Shown piece by piece: positions 1 to 48,208 of a stretch of DNA of 64,000 nucleotides. Source of the stretch: a virus; the IMG/VR virus record IMGVR_UViG_3300049491_000419, positions 27,483-91,482 of that record. One strand, 5' to 3'. The translations under genes were made by a program, and so were the position numbers. The first letter of the stretch is position 1. Each line of letters starts with the position of its first letter. Under the pieces are notes generated by a model that worked only from the letters and a program-made list of their open reading frames with translations, had not been told where the DNA came from and ran no database searches.

Positions 1-3000
1 ATCGTAACCGTAGACAACAAATGTACCATCGGCTAGTGCTCGAACAATAACACCGCTGTATGAATAGGTATCGACAACCGGGCTCTTATGTAGGAATACA
101 TCAAAGTTTGTTGACGGAATGATTAGGGTGTTGGTATTTGCACCAGGTGATACTGATGAAATATAAGTGTTGGTTGTGTCCTTGTTAATGAAACCCGCAA
201 CCTTGTTTGCAAGATTGACATCAAGTGTTCTGATTTTCTGTCCAAAGGTGTCGGCAATATTTTTTCCTAGGAAAAGAATTCTATCACTGATCCAGCACTG
301 ATATCCAAATCTAACTTCGGTTACACTATCAACAATTTCGGCGTGAACATACTGATCCTTATTCTTTGGGCGGAACCATGCAAAGAACGGATCATCAAAT
401 GCGAATATATCATTCTGTACATATTGCCAATTCTTGTTTGACATTACTGGGGTTGCAGATGCAGGTACAGTAATCATGCCAGGAGACAATTCGGTTCCTA
501 GTGTGTCCCACAGAAGTTCACCAAATGGGCCTGGACGCATTAAATATAGGAATTCCTGTGCGCTGTATGCGTATGCAGAAGTAGACATCCAAGCTTGCTC
601 AACTGGGGAACCATCGCCATACACCCACGCATCATCGAAATGATCAAATGGTGCGTAAGGATTTCCACTGTAGGCTAGACCAAACAGTGTAATGATAGGA
701 ATAATTTCGCCGGCGCCATCAACGGGAATCAATGAAGATAATCCCGGACGTACCCACATTTCCTGTGGTTGAACAATCTGGGTATCTGGGTTGTAAATTG
801 CACACGGACCCTGACGGATAATACCAGCCTCGAGATCGGTATACATGATGTGTAAGCCAGCAGAAGTTGAAGTCCACACTTCTTGGCCTGCAAGGTTTAG
901 GACTGGAGGACCATACTCTGTCTCCCACCATTCTGGCTTTGTACTGAATCCCAACATTTCCCATGGGCGTGTATCTGGGTAATAGGTATCATAGTAATAT
1001 TGGAAAATGCCTTTCCAGTTACCAGGCAAGTCAGTTTGACCACCTGTCGGAGTTACTGCGAGACGATAGTTATAAAGTTTCCACAACTGGTTAAGCGGAG
1101 TTGTCAGACTGGCAGTTGGCCAATCATTGACTCTGTAATTTGCTCTGTTCTTGGCAGACCACTTGTTTAGATATGACTCTGTAATCTCTAGATACTCATC
1201 ACGTGAGTAACGAGTTTGTCTAAAGTATCCAGTCTTTACAGATTCAATACGTAGAGGAATATAGTATTCGTTACGATACTTTGTCTGCAAGAAGTTATAG
1301 ATTCTTGTTTCAAGATCTAGAAGTAATTGATCTCTGTAATCACCGTAAGAAATTGTCTTTGAACCATCGTGCCCAATAACAACGTCAGTAGGAATTGCAT
1401 ATGTTGCGTCTAGTTCAATTCTAGGAATATATGCACCCCACGCACCAACCTTTGTTGGTGTTGATGGAATATAGGTTGGCAACGGGTTCTTGTATAGGTA
1501 GACAAGAATATCTTTAACACCCACACCTAGGTTCAGCTGAATATCGATTGCAAGGTTTGTATTAACAATTTCGTAATCAACGCCAACAGTTAGAATTCGT
1601 TCTGTTGTTGGATTTGTAACGTCGTAGAGGTATACAACATTTCGCGGATCTGTAAGGTCGACGTAGTTTGCAAGAGTAATTAATGTGTTACCCGGAACAT
1701 TAAATGTTTCTGATGCAAATGGTGTTCCTTGTGCTGCCATGAAGGAATACGCAAATGCATTTGAGAATTCCTTAGAGACATTGAGGATACGTAGGATTTC
1801 TCCAACCCATGCTGCAATGTCAACAGTGCCAGTGAATACCTGTACAGGATCAAATCCTTGGTTGATTAATTGTAGAGCAGTTGTTAGGAACTTGTTCTTA
1901 AACTTCGTGTACTCATCGGAACTAAAGCGGACACCTTTGATAAAATCTAGATCGTCGGAAGACGATACAAGCATTGATTTTAGTGCAGGAGCAAGGTTTT
2001 GTAGAATATATAAACCGACAGATCTATTCTTTAGGGAATCCCTGTAGTTGTTAATACCACCAAAGGATGATCCAGTAAAGCCTACTTGGTTTTCAATGAT
2101 GGAGGCAAAGTGTTGAATTAGATTACTTGCACTAATTTCAGAAACTTCAAGTTGTGTTGGGTTAGCCTCAAGCTGTTGAGGAATCTCAAAGTATCCCGGA
2201 TAAGCCGGATCTAGCAATCCTCTTGTATATGTTTGTGCCTCAACAACTGGTGGAATTGTTTGAGTTGTGGTTAACAAATTAGTTAGGTAAGCGGTAAGAT
2301 CAATATAGATTCTGTTGTTTAGTTCGAAGAACTCAAACCCGCCAATTTCGTTTTTAATTTCAGTACCGTTGACATTGACGCTAATATCAGCATCAGTTTG
2401 AATTGCACCTCCACCGAGAATATAACCGTATGGTGTGACGCTTAGTCTAAAATTGAATTCGGACCCATAGCCAACAACATACTTGTCAATAACTCTTTGC
2501 TTGCTATAATTTGGGCATGCACCGGCAGCAATAGCATCTTCGCCGAAGATAACCACATCACTGTTTAGGATTAGGCCGGTATTGAACGTGATTTGATTTG
2601 GGCCGGTTACTGTGAAGTTCTTTGTCGCACCCTCAAGTTGGTAGACGCCGTTAACAAATACTTGTAGGTATGAGTTTTCAGTTGTGCCTGCAAGTACAGG
2701 GAAGAGAGTAGTGAAGACTGTCTGGCTAGAAGTTGCAACAAGGCTTGCATAGCTAGGAGGAGTTGTAACCGTCGAATATCCGACAATAACTACATCGCTG
2801 TTTAGAGCCAGGCCAGTATTGAATGTAATCTGATTTGCACCAGTAACTGTGAAGTTCTTTGTAAGTCCTTCGACTTGGAATACACCGTTAACATACACCT
2901 GAATCTGTGTAGCTACTGTGGGAATCGCAGTGTTGAAAACTGTCTGGGCAGCTAAGGATACAAATTCTTCATAGTCAGGAATATCTGTAACAGCAGAATA

Positions 3001-4866
3001 ATCATAGATAACCACATCGCTGCTTAATGGAACACCGACGTTAAAGGTAATCTGGCTTGCACCAGTTACTTGATAATTCTTAGTTACACCCTCTTGTTGG
3101 TAGACACCATTTACAAATACCTGTAGGTATGTCTTACCAGCAGCATTTGCAACTGTAGGAATGTTAGTGTTAAAAACTGTCTGGGCAGCAGTAGCGGAAA
3201 ACTTTTCAAAGTTTGGATTAATACCGTCATCGCAGCCGCAAACATCATATAGATTCCAGTTGTTGAATGTAACTTCACTGGTTGTGATATTGTAGTAATA
3301 ATATCCGTCGATTGGTGTTAATACATTTCCGTTATAGGTGTATCGATTTGTTATTAGATCGTTTTGGAATACAATATCGGTTGCCTGACCAAGTGAGGTA
3401 TAGACGATAGGAAACTTCAACACTGGGTCAACAGTTGCACCTGCGGTTGTGTTTACCTTGTAAGAGAAAATCTCACTACCACGGAAAGTGCTGTCTGGGT
3501 AGGTAACTGGATCATCTAATTCAACGCCGTTGTGATCAAGCAAAACAAACAATGGAGGCTGATTTGTAGAAATTTTTTCGTTGTATGCCTCTTGCCATAC
3601 ACCTGCTTCATAGTACCAGGTTTGTCCGCGCTGGGCTGAATTGTATGGACCATCTTCTGCAACAAATACAATATCACCGTTAAGGGCAGGAGTAACTACA
3701 GAAGTCCATTCTGTGAATGTAACGATACCAAATCCGTCTACGTTTGCTTCATAGATATAGCCATTTGACAAAGGATCATCAAACCAGCAAACCAAGTCCA
3801 GGTCTGCCATTTCAATGTTGTAAGTTAGATTGATTGTTGCAAGTGGCTGACCCTGGAACTGTGCAAGTGTAAGAGGTTGTGCAGCCAAGTCTGTGCCGAA
3901 GCCGAAACTAATTGTTTCTCTAAACTGTGTTCCCGATTTGTACAGAGGAATGTTAGCAACAAATTGGATGATTGGGCGCAATGCGCGTGTAGCATTTGTT
4001 GGGAATGAACTTCCGGTTGCAGCAATCGATGCATTAATGGTTTCAATATGAAACCATTTGTTAGTTCTCGACCATGCGTTTCTGTCAATTGCGCCGCGCT
4101 CAATTGTAATGTAATCTCCATTACCTGGTTGTGCTTGAACTTCCCATGTGTTCATGTCCCAGAATTCGTTTTCGATAATTCTACCAGTGGACAACTCGAT
4201 TGTACCGTCCCATGGCAAGAATTCAAAGATTGTACCGGCAGTTAGGTCTGTGAACTTTTCAATTAAGTCAAAGCCAATACAACCGCCAAAGTTTTCAAGT
4301 ACATGCGGATCCGAAAATGTAGGATCATCAAGCAATGCGATTGTCATGCCCGATGTTAATGTTAGATTAGGTGGGGTTGCGGTAATAGGTGTTGTGTAAG
4401 ACGACTGGCCGATAATATCGGAAGCCAAAACACCAGTAATAGAAATTACAGGTAGGCCTTGCTCAACCCAATAGTAATTCTGATAGTTAATAAACATATC
4501 ATAATCAATTGGAGGGCCAAAGCTGTAGTATTCAGATTCAAACAGTCTATCCTGATTAAGAGTGTTGCCACCGTAATATTCGATGTTCTCTAGAAGATCT
4601 TCATAGAAGAATACATTACTCTTTGTTGTGTCTGCATCACGTGCGTATGCAGTAGCTTCAAGTTGCCACCATGTTCTATTCTTAGAAGGCTCTGGTAGGT
4701 AGAAATCAGTAATAGGATTGTAACTACCAGGATCTCTGCGTCCCAAATAACCAGCAAGCAAGTCGCTGTCTTTCTTTGAAAAGACTTGATCGAATGTTGC
4801 ATCAAAGAATTTCTTTTCAGTTACGGTTTGAAAAACCGCCGGTAGTTTCTTGATATACTGGGTCAT
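1..4866 (-). CDS. Giant virion structural protein, baseplate/fibre-junction position (gp7-like by position), 3' end outside window
   Basis: An open frame runs from the ATG at 4866 to the window edge, so at least 1,622 codons are visible and the C-terminus is missing. The protein begins MTQYIKKLPAVFQ and soon reads LFESEYYSFGPP, a style seen in large T4-like virion proteins. It is the last visible gene of the minus-strand baseplate operon, after gp6, where T4 has gp7. That name is by position only; I could not confirm homology. Between about 2535 and 3215 it holds three tandem copies of a roughly 75-residue module (QTVFNT, then VFVNGVYQ, then VTGA-QITFN). The same module recurs in fibre genes at 35026 and 52772. 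It has its own late promoter at 4904-4912 and a strong leader hairpin, but no clear Shine-Dalgarno sequence before the ATG. Confidence 0.85.
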   Translation of the reverse strand, partial: MTQYIKKLPAVFQTVTEKKFFDATFDQVFSKKDSDLLAGYLGRRDPGSYNPITDFYLPEPSKNRTWWQLEATAYARDADTTKSNVFFYEDLLENIEYYGGNTLNQDRLFESEYYSFGPPIDYDMFINYQNYYWVEQGLPVISITGVLASDIIGQSSYTTPITATPPNLTLTSGMTIALLDDPTFSDPHVLENFGGCIGFDLIEKFTDLTAGTIFEFLPWDGTIELSTGRIIENEFWDMNTWEVQAQPGNGDYITIERGAIDRNAWSRTNKWFHIETINASIAATGSSFPTNATRALRPIIQFVANIPLYKSGTQFRETISFGFGTDLAAQPLTLAQFQGQPLATINLTYNIEMADLDLVCWFDDPLSNGYIYEANVDGFGIVTFTEWTSVVTPALNGDIVFVAEDGPYNSAQRGQTWYYEAGVWQEAYNEKISTNQPPLFVLLDHNGVELDDPVTYPDSTFRGSEIFSYKVNTTAGATVDPVLKFPIVYTSLGQATDIVFQNDLITNRYTYNGNVLTPIDGYYYYNITTSEVTFNNWNLYDVCGCDDGINPNFEKFSATAAQTVFNTNIPTVANAAGKTYLQVFVNGVYQQEGVTKNYQVTGASQITFNVGVPLSSDVVIYDYSAVTDIPDYEEFVSLAAQTVFNTAIPTVATQIQVYVNGVFQVEGLTKNFTVTGANQITFNTGLALNSDVVIVGYSTVTTPPSYASLVATSSQTVFTTLFPVLAGTTENSYLQVFVNGVYQLEGATKNFTVTGPNQITFNTGLILNSDVVIFGEDAIAAGACPNYSKQRVIDKYVVGYGSEFNFRLSVTPYGYILGGGAIQTDADISVNVNGTEIKNEIGGFEFFELNNRIYIDLTAYLTNLLTTTQTIPPVVEAQTYTRGLLDPAYPGYFEIPQQLEANPTQLEVSEISASNLIQHFASIIENQVGFTGSSFGGINNYRDSLKNRSVGLYILQNLAPALKSMLVSSSDDLDFIKGVRFSSDEYTKFKNKFLTTALQLINQGFDPVQVFTGTVDIAAWVGEILRILNVSKEFSNAFAYSFMAAQGTPFASETFNVPGNTLITLANYVDLTDPRNVVYLYDVTNPTTERILTVGVDYEIVNTNLAIDIQLNLGVGVKDILVYLYKNPLPTYIPSTPTKVGAWGAYIPRIELDATYAIPTDVVIGHDGSKTISYGDYRDQLLLDLETRIYNFLQTKYRNEYYIPLRIESVKTGYFRQTRYSRDEYLEITESYLNKWSAKNRANYRVNDWPTASLTTPLNQLWKLYNYRLAVTPTGGQTDLPGNWKGIFQYYYDTYYPDTRPWEMLGFSTKPEWWETEYGPPVLNLAGQEVWTSTSAGLHIMYTDLEAGIIRQGPCAIYNPDTQIVQPQEMWVRPGLSSLIPVDGAGEIIPIITLFGLAYSGNPYAPFDHFDDAWVYGDGSPVEQAWMSTSAYAYSAQEFLYLMRPGPFGELLWDTLGTELSPGMITVPASATPVMSNKNWQYVQNDIFAFDDPFFAWFRPKNKDQYVHAEIVDSVTEVRFGYQCWISDRILFLGKNIADTFGQKIRTLDVNLANKVAGFINKDTTNTYISSVSPGANTNTLIIPSTNFDVFLHKSPVVDTYSYSGVIVRALADGTFVVYGYD
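2535..3215 (-). repeat. Three tandem copies (about 230 bp each) of a fibre module inside the giant virion gene
   Basis: Three successive segments encode the same pattern: QTVFNT, a short linker, LQVFVNGVYQ-EG-TKN, VTGA-QITFN, and SSDVVIYDY. The spacing is about 230 bp and the copies have diverged. The copy boundaries given are approximate. Related single copies close the proteins at 35026-35619 and 52772-54490. Confidence 0.75.
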
Positions 4867-27424: not shown

Positions 27425-27649
27425 ATGAAAGCTAAAGATTTACTTGTTGAATTCTATGACCCTGCCGATGATGAACTGGGGCAAGCAAAGATGGATGACA
27501 CTCGTCGTCCACGCTTAACTATGCTTCATTTGCAAAAACTTAGGAAATCACGCGATGCTGAAAAGTACGAAACTGCTCAGCACCTTAACTTCCTACCCGA
27601 TATGTATAGTCCTCCACCCGAGGAAGCTGGCGCGCCCGCCGGCCTATAA
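27425..27649 (+). CDS. Small head protein at the gp67 position
   Basis: This 74-residue protein contains DDTRRPRLTMLHLQKLRKSR, a pattern shared by a small conserved protein found between gp20 and gp21 in T4-like phages. T4 has the 80-residue prohead core protein gp67 at this place. It has an acidic N-terminal part, a basic centre and a proline-rich end. There is no Shine-Dalgarno sequence, because the region before the ATG is the AGATAAATA motif. Function is inferred from position. Confidence 0.75.
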   Translation: MKAKDLLVEFYDPADDELGQAKMDDTRRPRLTMLHLQKLRKSRDAEKYETAQHLNFLPDMYSPPPEEAGAPAGL

Positions 27650-35633: not shown

Positions 35634-37451
35634 ATGACACAACAAAAAATTCTAAGCAGTCAGTTGGCAGATTCGGGCGTTGTACCCGGCGCTTACACAT
35701 CATCTAACGTAACTGTTGATGCCGCCGGTAGAATTACAGCAATTGCAAACGGATCAAGTAGTCCAATAATACCATTGAACGAGATACCATATGGTACAGG
35801 TTCGGGTATTACATCGGAGCCGGCATTAACATATAATCCTACCACCAATACAGTTAACGGAACAAATATTATTCTTACAGGTGATGCATTCACACCTGGC
35901 ACACTTATAGCCAGTAACGGTATAAGTACGGTTTCTTATGGTATTCCAAACCGTGGCTATATTTACATGGCACCTAACCTCTATGTAGAGGATATTACCG
36001 GTGTTTTATATTTTAATGGATCGGACAATAATCCAAGAGCGTCAATTGGTTGGGCAGATACCGCTGGCGAATTAAGATATACCGGCACCGGAAACTCATT
36101 TGATGGTTATCTTGCAGTGGGATCAAGCGCCGGGCCCGGCGCTGGCCGAGGAGTATTTACACCTACACTTAAGATATTGAGTACAGGCGGTATTGACGCA
36201 AGTGGAGAAGGCACTGCAGGGCAGGTTCTTACATCGGGCGGTCCGGGTAACCCTCTAACCTGGACAACCGCATCCGGATCTATTTCTGCTCCTGTAAATG
36301 AGATTGTATATGGAACCGGTGCAGGAACAACTTCCGATCCGGCATTTACATATGATTCCGGAACCGATACTCTTACTATTGCGAGTGCAGGACCTGGATT
36401 GATCACAACCGATGCCGGCCAAGCCTTAACAATTCAACCCGGCGGAGCATTAAATCTTTATTCGGGAACCAATCCTACAGGAAGTAATCTAACTATCACT
36501 GCCGGTCTTGGATCTGCAGGCAACGGTGGCCAACTAGATATATCTGCAGGCCAGGCCCTTGGTGGCCAGGGTGGTAATTTAACCATTGCTGGTGGTAGTG
36601 CTGTAACAGGAAGCTTTGCCGGCGGCGCGGTCTCTATCTCTGCAGGCACCTCCACTGGAACTGTTCAGGGCGGAATAGCAATTCTTCAGGGTGGCGCATC
36701 TGTGGCGGGTAAGGGAGGTGATGTTCTTGTCGCCGCCGGGTTATCATCAACACCTGTCCAGCAAGATGGTGGACTTACACTTCAGGCTGGTCAGTCGGGA
36801 CACAACGGTGGTCACGTTAAGGTAATGACAAATGGAACAGAACGTTTGCGTATAGGCAGTCAAGGAACATGGAAAATCAATGGCACTAGCGGTGGCGCCG
36901 GACAGGTATTAACATCCAACGGTCCAGCTGCAACCCCGACATGGGAAGATGCAGGCGGCGGAGGTGGATATCTATTCGTTGCAAGTCTTAGCGCATCGGG
37001 CGTCACATTTAATGGAAGCCCCGTTACAACATGGACAGCTGGCGTATCATCGACCGCATCATATTGCCACTGGGATGCTTATTCAAGTTCTATCATCTTT
37101 GATACTGCCGGGGAATACAGAATCTCAATTATTGCATCAGCAAGTGGTAATGGATCTTGGCCAGACGGATTAACCAGTTATGGTACCACAGTAACAAATT
37201 CTAACTCGAACTATGAAACAAGACATTCATCATATGCCGCTGCTTATCCAAATAATTTCCAAGGAATTGCTGATTTTACCAGTGCCCCATATCAGTATAA
37301 CGAACAATGGACAGATGTCTTTGTTTTTGATCGTGGAGTCGGCCAATCTCAGCAAGTAGGTGTCTACGCTGCTAACTATCCGTCAAGCGGAAGTGTTCTA
37401 TATGTCCAGGCAATTGTTATTGTTGAATTGATTGGCCCACCGGGATTCTAA
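35634..37451 (+). CDS. Tail fibre protein with glycine-rich beta repeats
   Basis: The 605-residue protein starts MTQQKILSSQLADSGVVPGA and holds two NEI-YGTG-G-TSDPAFTY segments. From about residue 245 to 395 it has many short glycine-rich repeats of the kind GG-LTI-AG-A, which would stack as a narrow beta-helix shaft. The C-terminal 150 residues form a globular, tyrosine-rich tip. It looks like a trimeric fibre. A related shaft is found in the fibre at 52772. Confidence 0.8.
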   Translation: MTQQKILSSQLADSGVVPGAYTSSNVTVDAAGRITAIANGSSSPIIPLNEIPYGTGSGITSEPALTYNPTTNTVNGTNIILTGDAFTPGTLIASNGISTVSYGIPNRGYIYMAPNLYVEDITGVLYFNGSDNNPRASIGWADTAGELRYTGTGNSFDGYLAVGSSAGPGAGRGVFTPTLKILSTGGIDASGEGTAGQVLTSGGPGNPLTWTTASGSISAPVNEIVYGTGAGTTSDPAFTYDSGTDTLTIASAGPGLITTDAGQALTIQPGGALNLYSGTNPTGSNLTITAGLGSAGNGGQLDISAGQALGGQGGNLTIAGGSAVTGSFAGGAVSISAGTSTGTVQGGIAILQGGASVAGKGGDVLVAAGLSSTPVQQDGGLTLQAGQSGHNGGHVKVMTNGTERLRIGSQGTWKINGTSGGAGQVLTSNGPAATPTWEDAGGGGGYLFVASLSASGVTFNGSPVTTWTAGVSSTASYCHWDAYSSSIIFDTAGEYRISIIASASGNGSWPDGLTSYGTTVTNSNSNYETRHSSYAAAYPNNFQGIADFTSAPYQYNEQWTDVFVFDRGVGQSQQVGVYAANYPSSGSVLYVQAIVIVELIGPPGF

Positions 37452-37452
37452 T

Positions 37453-38070
37453 ATGAGGAGATTGGTTATTACTCCCTGGGACGGAAAAAATGCCAATCTT
37501 TTAGACAGATGTGTTGAAAGCGTAAAAGAAAGCGGAATAGAACATCGCGTAGTACAGTGTGGTCCCGAGTGGGAACTAACAATGTATTCCATGAGAAATG
37601 ATGCTGACGCAATAGCCTGGGTAGATGCTGACGATATTGTGTATCCTGGCGCCATTGTTCTTGCATTTGATATGCTTGAGCAACATGATGTCGGCCTCGC
37701 CTATACAAATGAATGTAGAATAGATCTTAATGATAAACAGACCTATTCATTTACAACAATTCCGAGAACTACATGGGACCTTGCAAGTCATCCAGGATCT
37801 GTACATCACTTAACAGTTACAAGAAAAGACACAATTACTGATCGCGTATTAGAGGTCCATAAAAGAACTAGAACACCGCTCGATTGGGCTATGCGTGTAG
37901 ACGCAGCAGCGCACAGGGGAATGGTTCATGTTCCAATTCTTGGATACGGATGGAGAGAGCATCCGACGCAAATCACGGCAAATCCAAAATGTCAGCTTGA
38001 GATGAGAGAAAGTATTCCACAAGCACGTAATAGTTTTCGAGAATGGATAACCGGAATTAAGCAGACCTAA
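37453..38070 (+). CDS. Glycosyltransferase, GT-A fold (family 2-like)
   Basis: From the ATG at 37453 the protein has 205 residues and begins MRRLVITPWDGKNANLLDRC. The segment AIAWVDADDIVYPGAI carries a DxD motif (Asp58-Ala-Asp60) that binds a metal and nucleotide sugar in GT-A enzymes. It sits between two fibre genes, 1 bp after the stop of the preceding one. It may glycosylate a virion protein or modify host glycans; the acceptor is unknown. A TTG 21 bp upstream is in frame but would overlap the fibre gene and adds nothing conserved. Confidence 0.75.
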   Translation: MRRLVITPWDGKNANLLDRCVESVKESGIEHRVVQCGPEWELTMYSMRNDADAIAWVDADDIVYPGAIVLAFDMLEQHDVGLAYTNECRIDLNDKQTYSFTTIPRTTWDLASHPGSVHHLTVTRKDTITDRVLEVHKRTRTPLDWAMRVDAAAHRGMVHVPILGYGWREHPTQITANPKCQLEMRESIPQARNSFREWITGIKQT

Positions 38071-39323: not shown

Positions 39324-42074
39324 ATGGATTTTGATTTTGACACGGGCACGATTTACGGCGGACTTTCAGCCCTAGACGTAACAACTCTACCACCACTAGG
39401 CGGACAGCTTGGCGTCCTAACTGTTTATGGAACAGGCGCTATTACAATTCCAAAAGGATCGACAGCACAAGAACCGTCTATTCCAGTATCGGGCATGTTC
39501 CGTTACAATACAGACATTAATCAGCTTGAATATTACGACAGTACAACCTGGCAGCAGCTAACCTCTACTGCAGGAACTGTTTCATCATTTCAGACTACAT
39601 TATCAGGATTAACTCCGAATACAGCGACAACAGGTGCTGTAACTCTGTCTGGCACATTGGGCGCAACGTCCGGAGGTACTGGCACATCCACTGCTCCCGC
39701 GGCTGGCCAGTTTCTATATTCCACTGGTGGCAGTACATATTCTGCGACCGCCTTGTCGGGATTTGCTGTAACAACATTCAGCGCAGGTACAACTGGATTC
39801 ACACCAAGTTCGCCAACAAGTGGCGCAATCACACTTGCAGGTCTTCTGGGACTCGCAAATGGTGGTACAAATGCCTCCTTAACTGCAATCGCCGGCGCCC
39901 CAATTTATAGCACTGCGTCAGCATTTGCACTTGGAACTGCAGGCACAACAGGGCAGGCATATATTTCAGGCGGATCAGGAACCCCAACCTGGAGAAATGT
40001 CTCATCTGACATTGACACGGATCCGAGTGCAATTCTTGCAGGAAATGGCTCCGGCGCATTTACTGCAACAGGTGGAACATTTCAAGGTTCGGGATCATTC
40101 TCAGGTGTCACTCTAAATGGTACTGTTACAAATGGAACAGACGCAACGACAAAGAATTATGTCGACAATGTCGCAAATGGTCTTTCATGGAAACAAGCAG
40201 TTCGTGCAGCAACAACAATTAACGGTACATTGGCAACAGCATATGAAAATGGCGATACTATCGATGGTGTAACACTTGTTACTGGCGATCGTATCCTTAT
40301 TAAAGATCAGAGTACCCAGACAGAAAATGGAATCTATGTTGTAAATGCAACAGGGGCGCCAACTCGTTCATCTGACGCCGATACCGGAACTGAACTTGTG
40401 GGTGCAGCAGTATTTATTGAAGAAGGAACAGTTAATGATAACACTGCATGGACTCAGATTACAAATGCACCTATTACAATCGGTACATCGAATATTGTTT
40501 GGACACAATTTGCTGGTCCGGGATCATACACAGCCGGCAACGGATTAACACTCATAGGTAATCAGTTCTCATTAATTTCCCCAGTAACTGTTGCAAATGG
40601 TGGTACAGGTGTTACAACCGCTCCAACAAATGGTCAGTTATTGATTGGTAATGGTACTGGATACACACTATCGACATTGACAGCTGGTTCGGGAGTTTCT
40701 GTAACAAACGGCGCGGGCACAATCACTGTTGCAAACACAGGTGTTCTATCGGTAACAGGTACAGCTTTCCAAATTGATGCAAGTCCGACAACAGGTGCGG
40801 TAACTCTAAGCATTCCGTCAACATTTATTGCTCCGGGATCAATTCGTGCAACAACTACACTTCAGGTTATTGGTAACATTGCAAAATCGTTCCTATACTC
40901 CGATAACTCGTTGCTTGTAACAACAACCGCAGCACCACTTGATGGAGAATTGCTAATTGGTTCAACTGGTAATAGTCCTTCTAAATCAACTATTACTGCC
41001 GGCACAGGAGTCGTTGTTACCAACGGACCGGGATCAATCACACTTTCTGTAGATTCGGCAGCAGTTGTAACATCATTCAGCGCAGGTACAACTGGTTTCA
41101 CACCAAGCACACCGACAAGCGGTGCAATTACTCTCGCAGGTACATTGAATTTTGCAAATGGTGGTACAGGACTTTCAGCACTTGGTTCAGCTAACCAATT
41201 CTTATCTGTGAATCCGGGTGCAACAGCACTTGAATATAAAACAATCACTGCTGGTACAGGTATTTCTGTAACTCCGGGTGCAGGTGTTCTAACAATTGCT
41301 AACACTGGTGTTACATCGGTCGCACTAGCACTACCAGCATCGGTGTTCAGTATTGCAGGATCACCAGTCACAACAACTGGTACTTTGACAGGTGCATTCA
41401 TTTCGCAATCTGCAAATACAGTATTTGCAGCACCTGACGGATCTTCGGGTACACCTACCTTCCGCGGATTGATATTCAATGATATCTCCAATGCAATTCA
41501 ATTATATAGAGAAAATCCATCAACACCGACAACACCTGTGGCAACTGGTACAAATGCGATTGCTGAAGGTAGTGGATCAACCGCCTCTGGTACAAGCAGC
41601 TATGCAAACGGCGACGGTACAAATGCAAGTATTTTTGGATCAAAGGCCTGGGCTAACGGTTCGTTTGCAACAGCAGGTGATGCTCAATCGGGAATGTATG
41701 TTCTTCGTAATGAAACAACAAACAACACCGCAACAGCATTGTTCCTTGATGGTACAGCAGGAACTCTACGTCTAGTAGTTGGTAATAACTCTGTATGGAC
41801 ATTTGATATTCTTGTTACTGCACGCAGAACAGATGCAACAGGTGGTGGGGCAGGTTATAGATTTGTTGGTGTTATCCGTAAGGATGCAACTGCAGGATCA
41901 ACAACATTTGTTGGTACACCTTCTAAGACAGTTATTGGTGAAACAGATGCAGCGTGGGATGCGGCAGTTACAGCAAACACAACAAATGGTGATTTGAGAG
42001 TTACTGTTACAGGGCAAAATGGAAAAACGGTTCGCTGGGTTGCGGTAGTGCAGACAGCCGAAGTTACAAACTAA
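39324..42074 (+). CDS. Large tail fibre protein (paralogue array)
   Basis: The 916-residue protein begins MDFDFDTGTIYGGLSALDVT. The opening MDFD(F/Y/S) and a P-SGMFRYNTDINQLEYYD segment are shared with the fibres at 42089 and 44746. A central domain reads NYVDNVANGLSWKQAVRAA, GDRILIKDQSTQTENGIYVV, and APITIGTSNIVWTQF. Repeated shaft segments and the shared tip domain (VRWVAVVQTAEVTN end) follow. It lies 13 bp after the previous fibre and 14 bp before the next. Confidence 0.85.
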   Translation: MDFDFDTGTIYGGLSALDVTTLPPLGGQLGVLTVYGTGAITIPKGSTAQEPSIPVSGMFRYNTDINQLEYYDSTTWQQLTSTAGTVSSFQTTLSGLTPNTATTGAVTLSGTLGATSGGTGTSTAPAAGQFLYSTGGSTYSATALSGFAVTTFSAGTTGFTPSSPTSGAITLAGLLGLANGGTNASLTAIAGAPIYSTASAFALGTAGTTGQAYISGGSGTPTWRNVSSDIDTDPSAILAGNGSGAFTATGGTFQGSGSFSGVTLNGTVTNGTDATTKNYVDNVANGLSWKQAVRAATTINGTLATAYENGDTIDGVTLVTGDRILIKDQSTQTENGIYVVNATGAPTRSSDADTGTELVGAAVFIEEGTVNDNTAWTQITNAPITIGTSNIVWTQFAGPGSYTAGNGLTLIGNQFSLISPVTVANGGTGVTTAPTNGQLLIGNGTGYTLSTLTAGSGVSVTNGAGTITVANTGVLSVTGTAFQIDASPTTGAVTLSIPSTFIAPGSIRATTTLQVIGNIAKSFLYSDNSLLVTTTAAPLDGELLIGSTGNSPSKSTITAGTGVVVTNGPGSITLSVDSAAVVTSFSAGTTGFTPSTPTSGAITLAGTLNFANGGTGLSALGSANQFLSVNPGATALEYKTITAGTGISVTPGAGVLTIANTGVTSVALALPASVFSIAGSPVTTTGTLTGAFISQSANTVFAAPDGSSGTPTFRGLIFNDISNAIQLYRENPSTPTTPVATGTNAIAEGSGSTASGTSSYANGDGTNASIFGSKAWANGSFATAGDAQSGMYVLRNETTNNTATALFLDGTAGTLRLVVGNNSVWTFDILVTARRTDATGGGAGYRFVGVIRKDATAGSTTFVGTPSKTVIGETDAAWDAAVTANTTNGDLRVTVTGQNGKTVRWVAVVQTAEVTN

Positions 42075-42088
42075 TAGGATAAAATAAA

Positions 42089-44716
42089 ATGGATTTTGAT
42101 TATTCAACGGAAACGATTACCCCCGAGTTAACAAATTTGTTGACAATCGGGGGAACAGGTGCTCTTGAAGTACCAATTGGTATTACAAGCGAAAGACCTG
42201 TTACAGGATTGGCCAATGGTGCCCTACGGTACAATACTACATTAAGCGTGCTAGAAGGATACATAAACAGCAGTTGGTATACTGTTACCACTGCTGGTAC
42301 ATCGACTCCATTGGTTCTATCTGGTGATGTCTCGGGTACCGGAACAACTTCAGCAGTCACAACAACTCTTGCAACAGTTAATGGAAACGTTGGCACATTC
42401 GCATCTGTAACTGTTAATGGCAAGGGGTTGGTTACTGCGGCAGCAGCACTTTCGGGTGATGCAACCACATCTGGTTCAGTTCTTACATTTGCAACAGTCA
42501 ACGGAAACGTTGGTCAGTTTACTGCTCTTACTGTAAACGGTAAGGGTTTAGTCACCGCAGCAACTAACCTTGCAGCAACAGGTGATGCAACTGGTACAGC
42601 ATCGGGAGCAGGCATTGCATTAACATTGGCAACTGTTAACGGTTCGCCACAAACTGACACATTCCGCAAGATTACTGTTAACGGTAAGGGTCTAGTGACA
42701 GCTACATCGGCAGTCACATCATCTGACATCACCACAGCATTGGGATTCACACCCGTAAATAGGGCCGGCGATACAATGACTGGTATTCTTAATGCCGGTG
42801 GATTTGTTATTTCTAACGTTGGAACTCCGGTAGCAGGTACAGATGCGACAAATAAGAATTATGTTGACGCAGCAGTTTCGGGTCTTTCATGGAAACAAGC
42901 AGTTCGTGCAGCAACAACAGTTAATGGAACTTTGGCAACAGCATTTGCAAATGGACAAACTATTGATGGTGTAACCCTTGCAACAGGCGATCGTATCCTT
43001 ATCAAGAACCAAACAACGCAGACAGAAAATGGAATCTATATTGTTGCGGCATCCGGTACCCCGACACGTTCCACAGATGCCGATACAGGTGCCGAACTTG
43101 TAGGGGCAACAGTTTATGTTGATCAAGGAACAGCAAATGCAGATACTGGTTGGACACAAACAACAAATGCACCTATTACAATCGGTACATCGAATATTGT
43201 TTGGGCACAGTTTTCCGGTTCTGGAGCATATACAGCTGGTACAGGTTTAACACTCACAGGTAATCAGTTCTCCCTTACTTCTCCGGTAGTTGCAACTCTT
43301 GGTGGTACAGGTACAACAACTGCTCCAACAAGCGGACAATTCTTGTATTCTTCGGGTGGTACAACTTATGCACCAACCACACTTACTACGGTAGCAGTCA
43401 CAACTTTTGCAGGTGGTACAACTGGTCTAACTCCAGCCGCCGCAACAAGTGGTGCGATTACGTTGGCAGGAACTCTTGTAGCTGTCAACGGTGGTACAGG
43501 TCAATCAGTTTACGCGGTTGGTGATATTCTATACGCAAGCACAACAACAGCACTTTCCAGACTCGCTGATGTTGCAGCAGGTAGCTATCTACGTTCCGGA
43601 GGTGTCAACACAGCACCTGTTTGGTCAACAACAACATTGCCAAACAGTGCAACAACTGGTGATATTTTGTTTGCTTCAGCAGCTAATACATATACCAATT
43701 TGGCCGATGTTGCAACAGGTAACGTGGTTATCTCTGGCGGTGTTGGTACTGCTCCATCATATGGTAAGGTTGGTCTAACAACTCACGTTTCGGGTACATT
43801 GCCAATCGCAAACGGTGGTACAAATAGTGCTACAGCCCTTTCGGGTAGCTCAATTATGGTTTCTAACGGTACCTCGATTATTCAGGGTGCTGCTGGTACA
43901 ACCACAACAGTTCTACACGGTAATGCAGCTGGTACTCCAACATATGGTGCAGTTTCTCTAACAGCTGATGTCTCCGGTATTCTTCCACTTGCAAACGGTG
44001 GCTCAAATGCTAACTTGACAGCGGTAAACGGCGGCATCGTTTACAGCACGGCTACAGCAATGGCTATCACAGCAGCAGGTACATCTGGACAGGTGTTGAC
44101 ATCCAGCGGTGCAGGTGCTCCAACTTGGACAAGTACATCGGGTCTATTGCAACTCTACAAAGAAAATCCATCATCACCTACAGCACCATCTGCTACAGGT
44201 ACAAATGCTGTGGCAATTCTTTCGGGATCAGCAGCATCCGGTACAAACGCAATCGCAATCGGTGCAGGTACATCAGCAAACGTCGCTAATATCTTTGCTT
44301 ATGCAAATGGAAACTTTGCAACAGCAGGCGATTCCCAGAATATTAGAACCATGTGCAGGAATAGTACAACCGACGCTACAGCAACTCAACTATTTGTAGA
44401 TGGCTCATCACAAAGACTTGTTCTTCCTAATAATTCTGCCTGGACATGTATTATTCGTGTTGTTGGTCGCAGAACTGATGCGACCGGCGGCAACGCTATG
44501 TATAGTTTTCTCGCCGGCGTCACTCGTGATGCTACCGCAGCAACAACCACATTGCAGAACTCTTCAAGAACAATTATTAATGAATCATCTGGTTCATTAA
44601 ATTGTACAATTGCCGCCGATACAACAAACGGATCCCTAAATATCACCGTAACAGGTATTGCTGCACAGACGTGGCGCTGGGTTGCAACTGTTGAAATCAC
44701 ACAGGTAACTAACTAA
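42089..44716 (+). CDS. Large tail fibre protein (paralogue array)
   Basis: The 875-residue protein begins MDFDYSTETITPELTNLLTI and has the RYNTTLSVLEGYINSSWYTV segment of this family. Its shaft repeats LATVNGNVG-F-(S/T)-TVNGKGLVTAA several times. The central domain (GLSWKQAVRAATTVNGTLAT through APITIGTSNIVW) is nearly identical in parts to the previous gene, down to stretches of about 40 identical bases. It ends with the same tip domain. Recent duplication or exchange is likely. Confidence 0.85.
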   Translation: MDFDYSTETITPELTNLLTIGGTGALEVPIGITSERPVTGLANGALRYNTTLSVLEGYINSSWYTVTTAGTSTPLVLSGDVSGTGTTSAVTTTLATVNGNVGTFASVTVNGKGLVTAAAALSGDATTSGSVLTFATVNGNVGQFTALTVNGKGLVTAATNLAATGDATGTASGAGIALTLATVNGSPQTDTFRKITVNGKGLVTATSAVTSSDITTALGFTPVNRAGDTMTGILNAGGFVISNVGTPVAGTDATNKNYVDAAVSGLSWKQAVRAATTVNGTLATAFANGQTIDGVTLATGDRILIKNQTTQTENGIYIVAASGTPTRSTDADTGAELVGATVYVDQGTANADTGWTQTTNAPITIGTSNIVWAQFSGSGAYTAGTGLTLTGNQFSLTSPVVATLGGTGTTTAPTSGQFLYSSGGTTYAPTTLTTVAVTTFAGGTTGLTPAAATSGAITLAGTLVAVNGGTGQSVYAVGDILYASTTTALSRLADVAAGSYLRSGGVNTAPVWSTTTLPNSATTGDILFASAANTYTNLADVATGNVVISGGVGTAPSYGKVGLTTHVSGTLPIANGGTNSATALSGSSIMVSNGTSIIQGAAGTTTTVLHGNAAGTPTYGAVSLTADVSGILPLANGGSNANLTAVNGGIVYSTATAMAITAAGTSGQVLTSSGAGAPTWTSTSGLLQLYKENPSSPTAPSATGTNAVAILSGSAASGTNAIAIGAGTSANVANIFAYANGNFATAGDSQNIRTMCRNSTTDATATQLFVDGSSQRLVLPNNSAWTCIIRVVGRRTDATGGNAMYSFLAGVTRDATAATTTLQNSSRTIINESSGSLNCTIAADTTNGSLNITVTGIAAQTWRWVATVEITQVTN

Positions 44717-44724: not shown

Positions 44725-44745
44725 GTTGATTATCAGGGGATTTAA

Positions 44746-45339
44746 ATGGATTTTGATAGCAATCTAGAGACAATTACACCTAATACCCTTACTACCTTAA
44801 CAATAGGTAGTACGGGTGGTGTCGTCGCACCTTCTGGAACCACGGCCCAACGCCCTGGTTCACCAGTTAGTGGAACCTTAAGATACAACACAACAACTTC
44901 TCTAATCGAAATATATCAGAATGGTATTTGGATTAATATTGGATCAACGGTCCCTGCAGGTGTATCTACTAACATTCAATTTAACAATGGTGGAATATTT
45001 GGTGGAACATCTAATTTTAATTACGTCGCCGGAACAAATCCACAGGTAAATTGTATTGGAACAGCGGCTACCACGCAACTTGCAATAGGCTCACCCACAC
45101 CTACAAATACAAATGTCACCCTTGGATCGAATAACTCGACAGTCTTTATTGAAGTTCCTGCTGATACAATATCTGAGGGACTTCGAGTATATTTCCATAG
45201 ATCTACGGCAGGCATCAGCGGATGGATTACATATGATTATGATGGTGCAGCACCAAATATTCGTCTGACAGATGAGGACGACGATCCACCGTATATTCAA
45301 TTTAACACTATTGGTACCGGAACATATTTATTGCCATAA
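44746..45339 (+). CDS. Fibre protein, N-terminal part before an in-frame stop
   Basis: The 197-residue product begins MDFDSNLETITPNTLTTLTI and has the family segment RPGSPVSGTLRYNTTTSLIE. It ends GTGTYLLP at a TAA (45337-45339). The same frame stays open after that TAA to 46119. The first codons beyond it, YTSLFGGRGPAAGRTTGFEW, look like the direct continuation of the same fibre domain. The stop therefore falls inside a domain rather than between genes. Either readthrough, a recent mutation or a base error explains it. Confidence 0.75.
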   Translation: MDFDSNLETITPNTLTTLTIGSTGGVVAPSGTTAQRPGSPVSGTLRYNTTTSLIEIYQNGIWINIGSTVPAGVSTNIQFNNGGIFGGTSNFNYVAGTNPQVNCIGTAATTQLAIGSPTPTNTNVTLGSNNSTVFIEVPADTISEGLRVYFHRSTAGISGWITYDYDGAAPNIRLTDEDDDPPYIQFNTIGTGTYLLP

Positions 45340-45444
45340 TATACTAGCCTATTTGGAGGTAGGGGTCCGGCCGCCGGCCGCACAACCGGATTCGAATGGA
45401 AACTTGGTACAAATACAGCCGATTGGTCTGCCGCATCAACAATA

Positions 45445-46119
45445 ATGTTAATGGATACGCAATTCTTAACACTACCCGGTGGTTCATTTAATGGTGCCGC
45501 CGCAACCGGTACAACTGCAAATCGTCCGACACCTGCTTCGGGAATGATAAGATATAACGGAACTCTGAACCGATTTGAATCATATGAACAATCTGCCTGG
45601 TTGACCTCCTCTGGAGTGTTAGATAAATCAACAACCTCGGTAACGGCGACCACCGCCGCCGCGACAACGTTGTTTACCTTTTCTGTTCCCGGAAATACAT
45701 TAAACACCGACGGTATATTAAGATTAACTATGAATGGCTCATTTACCGTCGGTGGAACAGGACGAACATGCACTATAACTATTTCCTATGGTGGTACTAC
45801 AATGTGGACCGACACCACTGCAACCGTCACTAACGGATTGGTAATGGGTTGGTCGATGGATCTAATGTTAGCAGCAAATAACTCCGCCAATGCTCAGACA
45901 CTTAGTGGGAATATTACACTGGGAACACCTGGTGCACCAACAACTGGTACTGCTGGTAATTTTGCAGCCGCATTAAATACGGCGCCAACCGCAACCACAA
46001 ATATTTTGGGTTCGGCTGCATTTGCCTCAGCAGGTGCAGGCACATTCTTAGTTCAGGTAAGTTTTAGTGGAACAGTTACCGGATTCATTAAAAATATTCA
46101 TATCTTAGAGAAATTATAA
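45445..46119 (+). CDS. Fibre protein, C-terminal part after the in-frame stop
   Basis: This segment is in the same frame as the gene ending at 45339, and the frame is open from 45340. The first ATG (45445) has no ribosome-binding site; a purine-rich GGAGG at 45355-45359 has no start codon close behind it. From that ATG, 224 residues include LTLPGGSFNGAAATGTTANR, the repeated RPTPASGMIRYNGTLNRFES segment, and a beta-rich tip (FTVGGTGRTCTITISYGGTT). It is probably the second half of one 457-codon fibre. Its stop overlaps the next start by 1 bp. Confidence 0.65.
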   Translation: MLMDTQFLTLPGGSFNGAAATGTTANRPTPASGMIRYNGTLNRFESYEQSAWLTSSGVLDKSTTSVTATTAAATTLFTFSVPGNTLNTDGILRLTMNGSFTVGGTGRTCTITISYGGTTMWTDTTATVTNGLVMGWSMDLMLAANNSANAQTLSGNITLGTPGAPTTGTAGNFAAALNTAPTATTNILGSAAFASAGAGTFLVQVSFSGTVTGFIKNIHILEKL

Positions 46120-47678
46120 TGGCAACAATATATAATAAAGTTACGAGAGAATGGGGATCAATAGATGATACGTCTTCCCTTTCAACCGATTGGTTAATTA
46201 ATCCTATATTCACAGACCAAAACTTAGCAATGGCGTTGGGACAAGATTATTGGCAATTTACTGGAAATACGATTAGTACAATTACTCAGAACGAATATGA
46301 TATTATTAAAGTTACGCAATCTAAAGATAGAGCGTGGACTTTAATACAGGCCGAAAGAGAACGTAGAATATATACATTAGGTGTACAAGTTTCCTCAGAC
46401 CGATTTCATAGTGATCCTACCTCGCGGGTTCAATTTGTTGCTTTAGCATCTTATGGAAATACAATGCCAAACACCATCTATTGGAAAACAATGTCGGGTT
46501 CTTTCGTCTTAATGACTCCGACATTGGCCTCTCAAATTGTTTCGGCAGTTGCTAGTATGGATTCGGGTATTTTTGCTTATGCTGAGCAATTAAAGTCGGC
46601 TCTTTATGCAAGTACAGATCCATCAAATTTTGATATCTATACAGGTTGGCCAACCACATTCACATCTTTAACAATTGGTAATTTATCGGGAACATTTTCT
46701 AAGGTAACTACTGATTCGGTAGGAAGGGTAGTTTCAGGATCAAATCCAACAACACTTCTCGGATACGGAATAACTGATGCAATTAGTTCATCTGAAAAGG
46801 CAGCTATCAATGGTGTAGCTACATTAGGGGCTGATGTTAAAATCACACCAGCACAGTTACCCTCTGTTGTTTCGGCAATATCTACACAGAATATTGCCCA
46901 AAGATCTTTTCTATCGCAGACTGTAGATATCTCGGGAATACTTCAACCTATGTTGGCACGTAATAAAGTAGGTTATTGGGCGCCACCCGGTAACGGAACA
47001 ACTGTGCCTGGTGTTTTCGGAATTACAGCACCGACCGCCCTCGGGACCGCAACAGCAAGAACCGTTGCTACCACTAATTTAGCCAACAGAATGAGACGAA
47101 TTGGGTATCCCAGCGCGTCCACAGCAGCATCATTTGCTGGTGTGAGAACTGCTGTAGCACAATTCACATGTGGATCGGGAATAGTTCGTGATGGATCGGG
47201 ATTTACTCTTGTCGAACGATGGGTAGAAAGCACACCCGCACCTGTCGCAGGACAACGAGCCTTTGCTGGCATGTCTAGTACCACGGCAGCACCATCAAAT
47301 GTAGAGTCAAACACATTAACTAATTCGATAGGTATTGGTCAACTATCAACAGATGCTACACAATGGTATTGGATACAAGGCGGATCATCGGCACAATCGG
47401 CAATGGCTATTGGGGCATCTATAGGTGCTCCGGCCGGAAACTCGACAACTGTTTGGGAATTAGCTATCTATTGCCCCAATAATATTGCCAATACATATTA
47501 TCTATTACTCACAAATGTAACCACAGGTGTTACAGCGAGTACCACAATGTCGGGTACGTCGGCACAGATACCTTTATCAACGACATTATTGGCTCACAGA
47601 CACTGGATTTGCAATAATGCAACCGCCCTCGCAGTGAGTATGGACCTTTGCTCATTGTATATTGAAACGGACAACTAA
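46119..47678 (+). CDS. Fibre/adhesin protein with a DUF4376-like domain
   Basis: The 519-residue protein has an N-terminal region, then a DUF4376-like domain at about residues 68-165 (DRAWTLIQAERERRIYTLGV, VQVSSDRFHSDPTSRVQF, WKTMSGSFVLMTPTLA). A shaft segment follows (VTTDSVGRVVSG, LLGYGITDA), and then a large beta-rich tip from about 290 to the end. DUF4376 domains are found near the ends of phage fibres and in fibre partners. The following gene carries a second copy of this domain. Confidence 0.78.
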   Translation: MATIYNKVTREWGSIDDTSSLSTDWLINPIFTDQNLAMALGQDYWQFTGNTISTITQNEYDIIKVTQSKDRAWTLIQAERERRIYTLGVQVSSDRFHSDPTSRVQFVALASYGNTMPNTIYWKTMSGSFVLMTPTLASQIVSAVASMDSGIFAYAEQLKSALYASTDPSNFDIYTGWPTTFTSLTIGNLSGTFSKVTTDSVGRVVSGSNPTTLLGYGITDAISSSEKAAINGVATLGADVKITPAQLPSVVSAISTQNIAQRSFLSQTVDISGILQPMLARNKVGYWAPPGNGTTVPGVFGITAPTALGTATARTVATTNLANRMRRIGYPSASTAASFAGVRTAVAQFTCGSGIVRDGSGFTLVERWVESTPAPVAGQRAFAGMSSTTAAPSNVESNTLTNSIGIGQLSTDATQWYWIQGGSSAQSAMAIGASIGAPAGNSTTVWELAIYCPNNIANTYYLLLTNVTTGVTASTTMSGTSAQIPLSTTLLAHRHWICNNATALAVSMDLCSLYIETDN

Positions 47679-47683
47679 CCATT

Positions 47684-48208
47684 ATGTATACTATTTTTTT
47701 AGACTCGGGCGAGGTAATGCGTATCTCGGATTCTAAGATTGTCGCGCCAGCTCAAGATGAAAATGATTTAGATTTTATAGAGTATAAGACATGGATCGCC
47801 CAGGGCAATTCACCTACTGTAGGATCAACCTCTGCAGCGGGATTATCCGAGCAAAAAATTGATAAATGGCGTCTAATACAAATTGAACGAGATAGAAGAA
47901 AGGCCGGTGGTGTTCAAGTTGGAGCTAATTGGTTCCATTCTGATGATACATCAAGAATACAGTTTATTGGATTATTGCTGTATGGTGCTAATATGCCAGC
48001 TAATATTATGTGGAAAACAATGTCTGGATCTTTTGTTCAAATGACACCTACATTAGCTCAGCAGATTTTTGGATCCATAGCAGCTAAGGATACATTAATT
48101 TTTACAATAGCAGAAACACACAAGGCCCAGGTATATGCATCGTCGACACCAGGTGTATACAATATCTTTAATGGCTCGCCAGCCTGGCCACTAATATATG
48201 GAGAATAA
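47684..48208 (+). CDS. DUF4376-domain fibre-associated protein
   Basis: The 174-residue protein has a short N-terminal part (MYTIFLDSGEVMRISDSKIV) and then a DUF4376 domain (WRLIQIERDRRKAGGVQVGA, WFHSDDTSRIQF, MWKTMSGSFVQMTPTLAQQI). It is clearly related to the middle of the preceding protein. Short proteins of this type act as fibre-tip or assembly partners in several phages; the role here is inferred. It starts 5 bp after the preceding gene. Confidence 0.75.
   Translation: MYTIFLDSGEVMRISDSKIVAPAQDENDLDFIEYKTWIAQGNSPTVGSTSAAGLSEQKIDKWRLIQIERDRRKAGGVQVGANWFHSDDTSRIQFIGLLLYGANMPANIMWKTMSGSFVQMTPTLAQQIFGSIAAKDTLIFTIAETHKAQVYASSTPGVYNIFNGSPAWPLIYGE

Follow-up and report, generated by a model that had tools for sequence, protein, structure and literature searches.

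What does a single stop codon in the middle of an otherwise open, fibre-like phage gene represent: a boundary between two proteins, a site of readthrough or recoding, a disabling mutation, or a wrong base? The question is raised by an interrupted frame in a 64,000-nucleotide stretch (the window; positions 27,483 to 91,482 of IMG/VR record IMGVR_UViG_3300049491_000419), to which all coordinates below refer.

Results

The interrupted frame and its genomic setting

The record, a viral contig of 91,482 bases, comes from a large T4-like myovirus. It encodes baseplate wedge and hub proteins, a late sigma factor, a portal, a tail sheath and a major head protein, the last being 78% identical to that of the Pseudomonas jumbo phage PA5oct and 95-99% identical to that of many uncultured contigs. 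The record probably covers about one third of the genome, most of which would be missing from it.

The interrupted gene sits in a cluster of fibre-like genes (Table 1). Reanalysis reconfirmed the coordinates and frame given in a preliminary description made from the DNA letters: the TAA is the sole internal stop. The gene is well started, with a Shine-Dalgarno-like hexamer upstream, and no terminator-like site was found within it. Several neighbours were recorded in their own right. Between two fibre-like genes lies a 212-codon open reading frame (37432-38070, +) that resembles a small glycosyltransferase (AWVDADDIVYPGAIV) and that a codon-usage gene call trained on the structural genes had missed. 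Adjoining the baseplate genes, an uninterrupted frame of about 3,700 codons occupies positions 1-4866 (-) and continues 6.2 kb upstream of the window. The gene that follows the interrupted one and the gene adjacent to it in turn (47684-48208, +) each carry DUF4376, a tail-associated domain, which suggests a duplicated fibre-tip or assembly-protein module; after this pair comes a Peptidase_C92-like gene at 48198.

Table 1. Features of the interrupted fibre-like gene and its immediate surroundings (window coordinates).
Feature	Coordinates	Strand	Remarks
Shine-Dalgarno-like AGGGGA	44735..44740	+	Five bases 5' of ATG 44746; read from sequence
Fibre-like gene frame	44746..46119	+	457 codons including the internal TAA, plus terminal TAA; intact single-gene homologues
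N-terminal module	44746..44940	+	MDFD..ETITP..LTIG..P.GTTAQRP...RYNT..W
Conserved middle domain	44953..45405	+	Interrupted by the stop; QFNNxGxFGG...GWITYxYD...DEDDDPPYIxF...FGGRGP...TTGFxW
Internal TAA	45337..45339	+	Codon 198; tetranucleotide TAAT; sense codon in 10/10 relatives
GGAGG, Shine-Dalgarno-like	45355..45359	+	Encodes the conserved Gly-Gly of FGGRG, which accounts for it
GC stem CGGCC-GCC-GGCCG	45368..45380	+	13 nt
First ATG after the stop	45445..45447	+	35 codons on
C-terminal beta-sandwich domain	45595..46116	+	Missing from the truncated product
Next gene (DUF4376)	46119..47678	+	Start overlaps the terminal stop of the fibre-like gene (TAATG)

The sequence after the stop is coding in character

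The 259 codons 3' of the TAA are open, an outcome to which the base composition of the window gives a probability of about 1e-7. The 35 codons that separate the stop from the next ATG had been described as coding in style, and codon usage bore this out: they score 0.43 bits per codon in frame, a value at the median for genes of this phage (0.42), and -0.15 and -0.82 in the other two frames. We then scanned the whole 91.5-kb record for stops with coding-like flanks in the same frame and on the same strand. The TAA at 45337 was the sole convincing case.

Relatives carry a single gene through the stop position

Relatives were retrieved with the N-terminal half and with alignments; the post-stop half, used as a single-sequence query against viral contigs and isolated phages, gave no matches. 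For the middle domain, ten distinct relatives were compared; all align without gaps through the stop position, each inside an unbroken open reading frame (441-1471 aa), and have glutamine (seven), leucine (two) or glutamate (one) in its place. The position comes right after an invariant proline and a few residues ahead of an invariant phenylalanine, inside the most conserved block of the domain (DEDDDPPYIxF...FGGRGP...TTGFxW). Because the alignment shows no added sequence at the stop, an intron or translational bypassing was rejected.

Among the relatives is a syntenic orthologue on contig IMGVR_UViG_3300037322_000452 (G010), which belongs to the same clade as this phage (98% identity between the major head proteins). 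This orthologue is a single, stop-free open reading frame of 436 aa in the equivalent slot, within a run of fibre genes and before an open reading frame resembling the DUF4376-bearing gene at 46119. Together with the other intact relatives it strongly supports the earlier view that the stop lies within a domain of one gene. Since the relatives carry one gene, the opposite arrangement named in the preliminary description, two separate and well-initiated genes, was not seen. One further locus, L138, had been considered as a second interrupted case on account of its late first ATG; this was rejected, as it reads as intact from a non-ATG (TTG-type) start.

Domain content and the case for a fibre

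Matches of the interrupted gene to PHROG families are mostly of unknown function, with one cyanophage match annotated as a tail fiber. Its N-terminal module is common to the fibre-like gene at 42089, more loosely to that at 39324, and to the genes in the corresponding slot of relatives. A structure model of the full-length protein (mean pLDDT 53) was too weak for use, and its PDB matches, with TM-scores below 0.2 when normalised to the query, were set aside. The C-terminal beta-sandwich modelled separately (mean pLDDT 66) resembles, at modest confidence, phage spike C-termini and TNF-like lectins. In a viral structure library its best matches were mostly phage proteins, many of them unnamed, including spikes and a depolymerase; those in the PDB included TNF-like lectins and lambda-type tail-fibre domains, and none reached an E-value of 0.001. 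On the model, this domain is probably the receptor-facing or trimerising tip, and a trimerising, surface-binding role can reasonably be proposed for it. We speak of a fibre gene because of the weak family matches, the N-terminal module common to the fibre-like cluster and the fold resemblance; a tail fibre is a reasonable if tentative assignment, and the gene may act in host range.

Comparable fibre-like genes occur on uncultured phage contigs, of the PA5oct clade and others. A similar N-terminal module is found in G012 (L105) and L137, and the same middle and C-terminal modules are found in G010 (L102), L135 and L137. In contrast to the gene studied here, all four are uninterrupted, and the modules are shuffled among them. 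In L138 (2665-3528), a fibre N-terminal module leads straight into a relative of the C-terminal domain, with no middle domain between them, which is evidence of module shuffling in the fibre family. In close relatives, differing C-terminal modules stand behind related N-termini (L105 and L112 of G012; L102 and L109 of G010). The fibre cluster is likely to be a recombination hot spot.

Separate synthesis of the C-terminal domain

If the TAA ended a first protein, the C-terminal domain could be made as a second one by reinitiation or from an internal start. An isolated C-terminal domain is imaginable because one distant phage encodes a stand-alone relative of it (L139, 179 aa), and a GGAGG is present at 45355. 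However, no start codon lies near this GGAGG, and the ATGs at 45445, 45451 and 45544 are without a ribosome-binding site at useful spacing; for the first of them this confirms what had been noted from the letters. Moreover, the 35 codons ahead of that ATG are mostly conserved middle-domain sequence, and none of the relatives of the full gene is split. We therefore regard a two-protein arrangement as highly improbable.

Readthrough and recoding of the TAA

An undamaged, coding-like frame beyond the stop also fits a functional readthrough product, and the preliminary description had proposed that readthrough might yield short and long fibres. In such a scheme programmed or leaky decoding of the TAA would add a minority of long fibres to the short ones. 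The proposal found no support in the context of the stop, in its conservation or in RNA structure. In bacteria, UAA is the stop codon least often read through, and UAAU is considered the most powerful termination signal (PMC5289835). None of the ten relatives has the stop, and the short form would end within a conserved domain. The GC-only stem noted downstream is indeed located as described; its unusual character was not upheld, as the folding is insignificant (z = -0.72) and 40 of 200 shuffled sequences fold as well. The stem belongs to the coding sequence for the conserved GRGPAAG segment, and the GC-rich hairpin was not seen in the relatives that were folded. Hairpin-driven readthrough was rejected on these grounds, and programmed or leaky readthrough is judged to be as improbable as separate synthesis. 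A variant peculiar to this phage, in which low-level UAA readthrough would furnish a small number of long, tipped fibres amid a majority of short, tipless ones, is slightly less credible again; were it true, the virion population would be mixed in adsorption ability.

Stop reassignment is known in phages, with TAG read as glutamine in crAss-like phages (PMC9523058), and the relatives mostly have glutamine at the stop position. TAA might be decoded as an amino acid by the phage or, late in infection, by its host. Yet almost every gene of the adjacent structural cluster ends in TAA, as do 46 of the 64 genes called in the record as a whole, TAAT being the commonest stop context. No other convincing in-frame TAA was found in the 91.5 kb, nor any tRNA gene, in a record that is probably about one third of the genome. 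Because TAA serves as a normal terminator and is found only once inside a gene, reassignment is contradicted; recoding, including by a suppressor tRNA, was rejected as the least probable of the explanations considered.

A nonsense substitution or a wrong base

The likeliest accounts are thus an ordinary disabling mutation and an error in a single base, rather than a programmed two-protein scheme. A clean single substitution, an intact frame and otherwise stop-free genes fit both of these readings, a nonsense allele and a consensus error, each of which the preliminary description had listed. In the latter case, a base-calling or assembly error, the true virus would have a sense codon and an intact gene. 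This is suggested by the isolated, substitution-type nature of the difference, by the intactness of all ten relatives and by the lack of other damage in the frame. The stop was seen in one metagenomic record only, and exact-flank pattern searches of viral and genome contigs returned no second copy, that is, no near-identical contig with the same site; this counts against a nonsense allele and in favour of an error. On the other hand, the record contains no further internal stop in 91.5 kb and so is not of low quality overall. In an assembled consensus, substitution errors occur rarely, and no more than a few percent of such errors create a stop. We accordingly rate an error as unlikely, while giving it far more weight than readthrough, recoding or separate synthesis.

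Our preferred reading is that codon 198 probably carries a real nonsense substitution in an ancestrally continuous, 457-codon fibre gene of a PA5oct-like jumbo myovirus. Provided that the base at 45337 is real, translation from 44746 would give a 197-residue product containing the N-terminal module and most of the middle domain, and this truncated fibre would be tipless or non-functional. The remainder of the gene would receive trace translation at most, through weak reinitiation or leaky termination. Since the 259 codons beyond the stop are otherwise undamaged, the change would be recent or polymorphic. Several other fibre-like genes may allow the phage to tolerate the truncation.

Discussion

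Loss of accessory tail fibres by mutation is already well documented, in lambda stf and in kayvirus orf119, which makes the interrupted gene an ordinary event. Laboratory lambda and plaque-selected mutants have both lost side tail fibre function; the loss is tolerated, lowers the adsorption rate and is selectable (PMC2762979). The likeness to the present gene is one of kind of event, the loss of an accessory fibre gene's function by small mutations. The stf mutations are mostly one-base insertions or deletions in homopolymers, whereas here a nonsense substitution is proposed. In kayvirus 812K1/420, the tail-fibre gene orf119 is split by a premature stop and the ribonuclease H gene by an in-frame nonsense mutation (PMC6445280). 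The former resembles our case in that a premature stop divides a fibre gene into two open reading frames, but it stems from a 77-bp deletion and belongs to another phage family; the latter shares with the interrupted fibre gene the in-frame nonsense split.

Nothing about the interrupted gene points to a novel mechanism of translation. Gene calling will present such a locus as two 'hypothetical proteins', a matter that comparison with relatives settles. If the base is real, the gene would represent natural loss of the tip from an accessory fibre gene in an uncultured jumbo phage, in agreement with the view that fibres are acquired and lost by phages when their hosts change.
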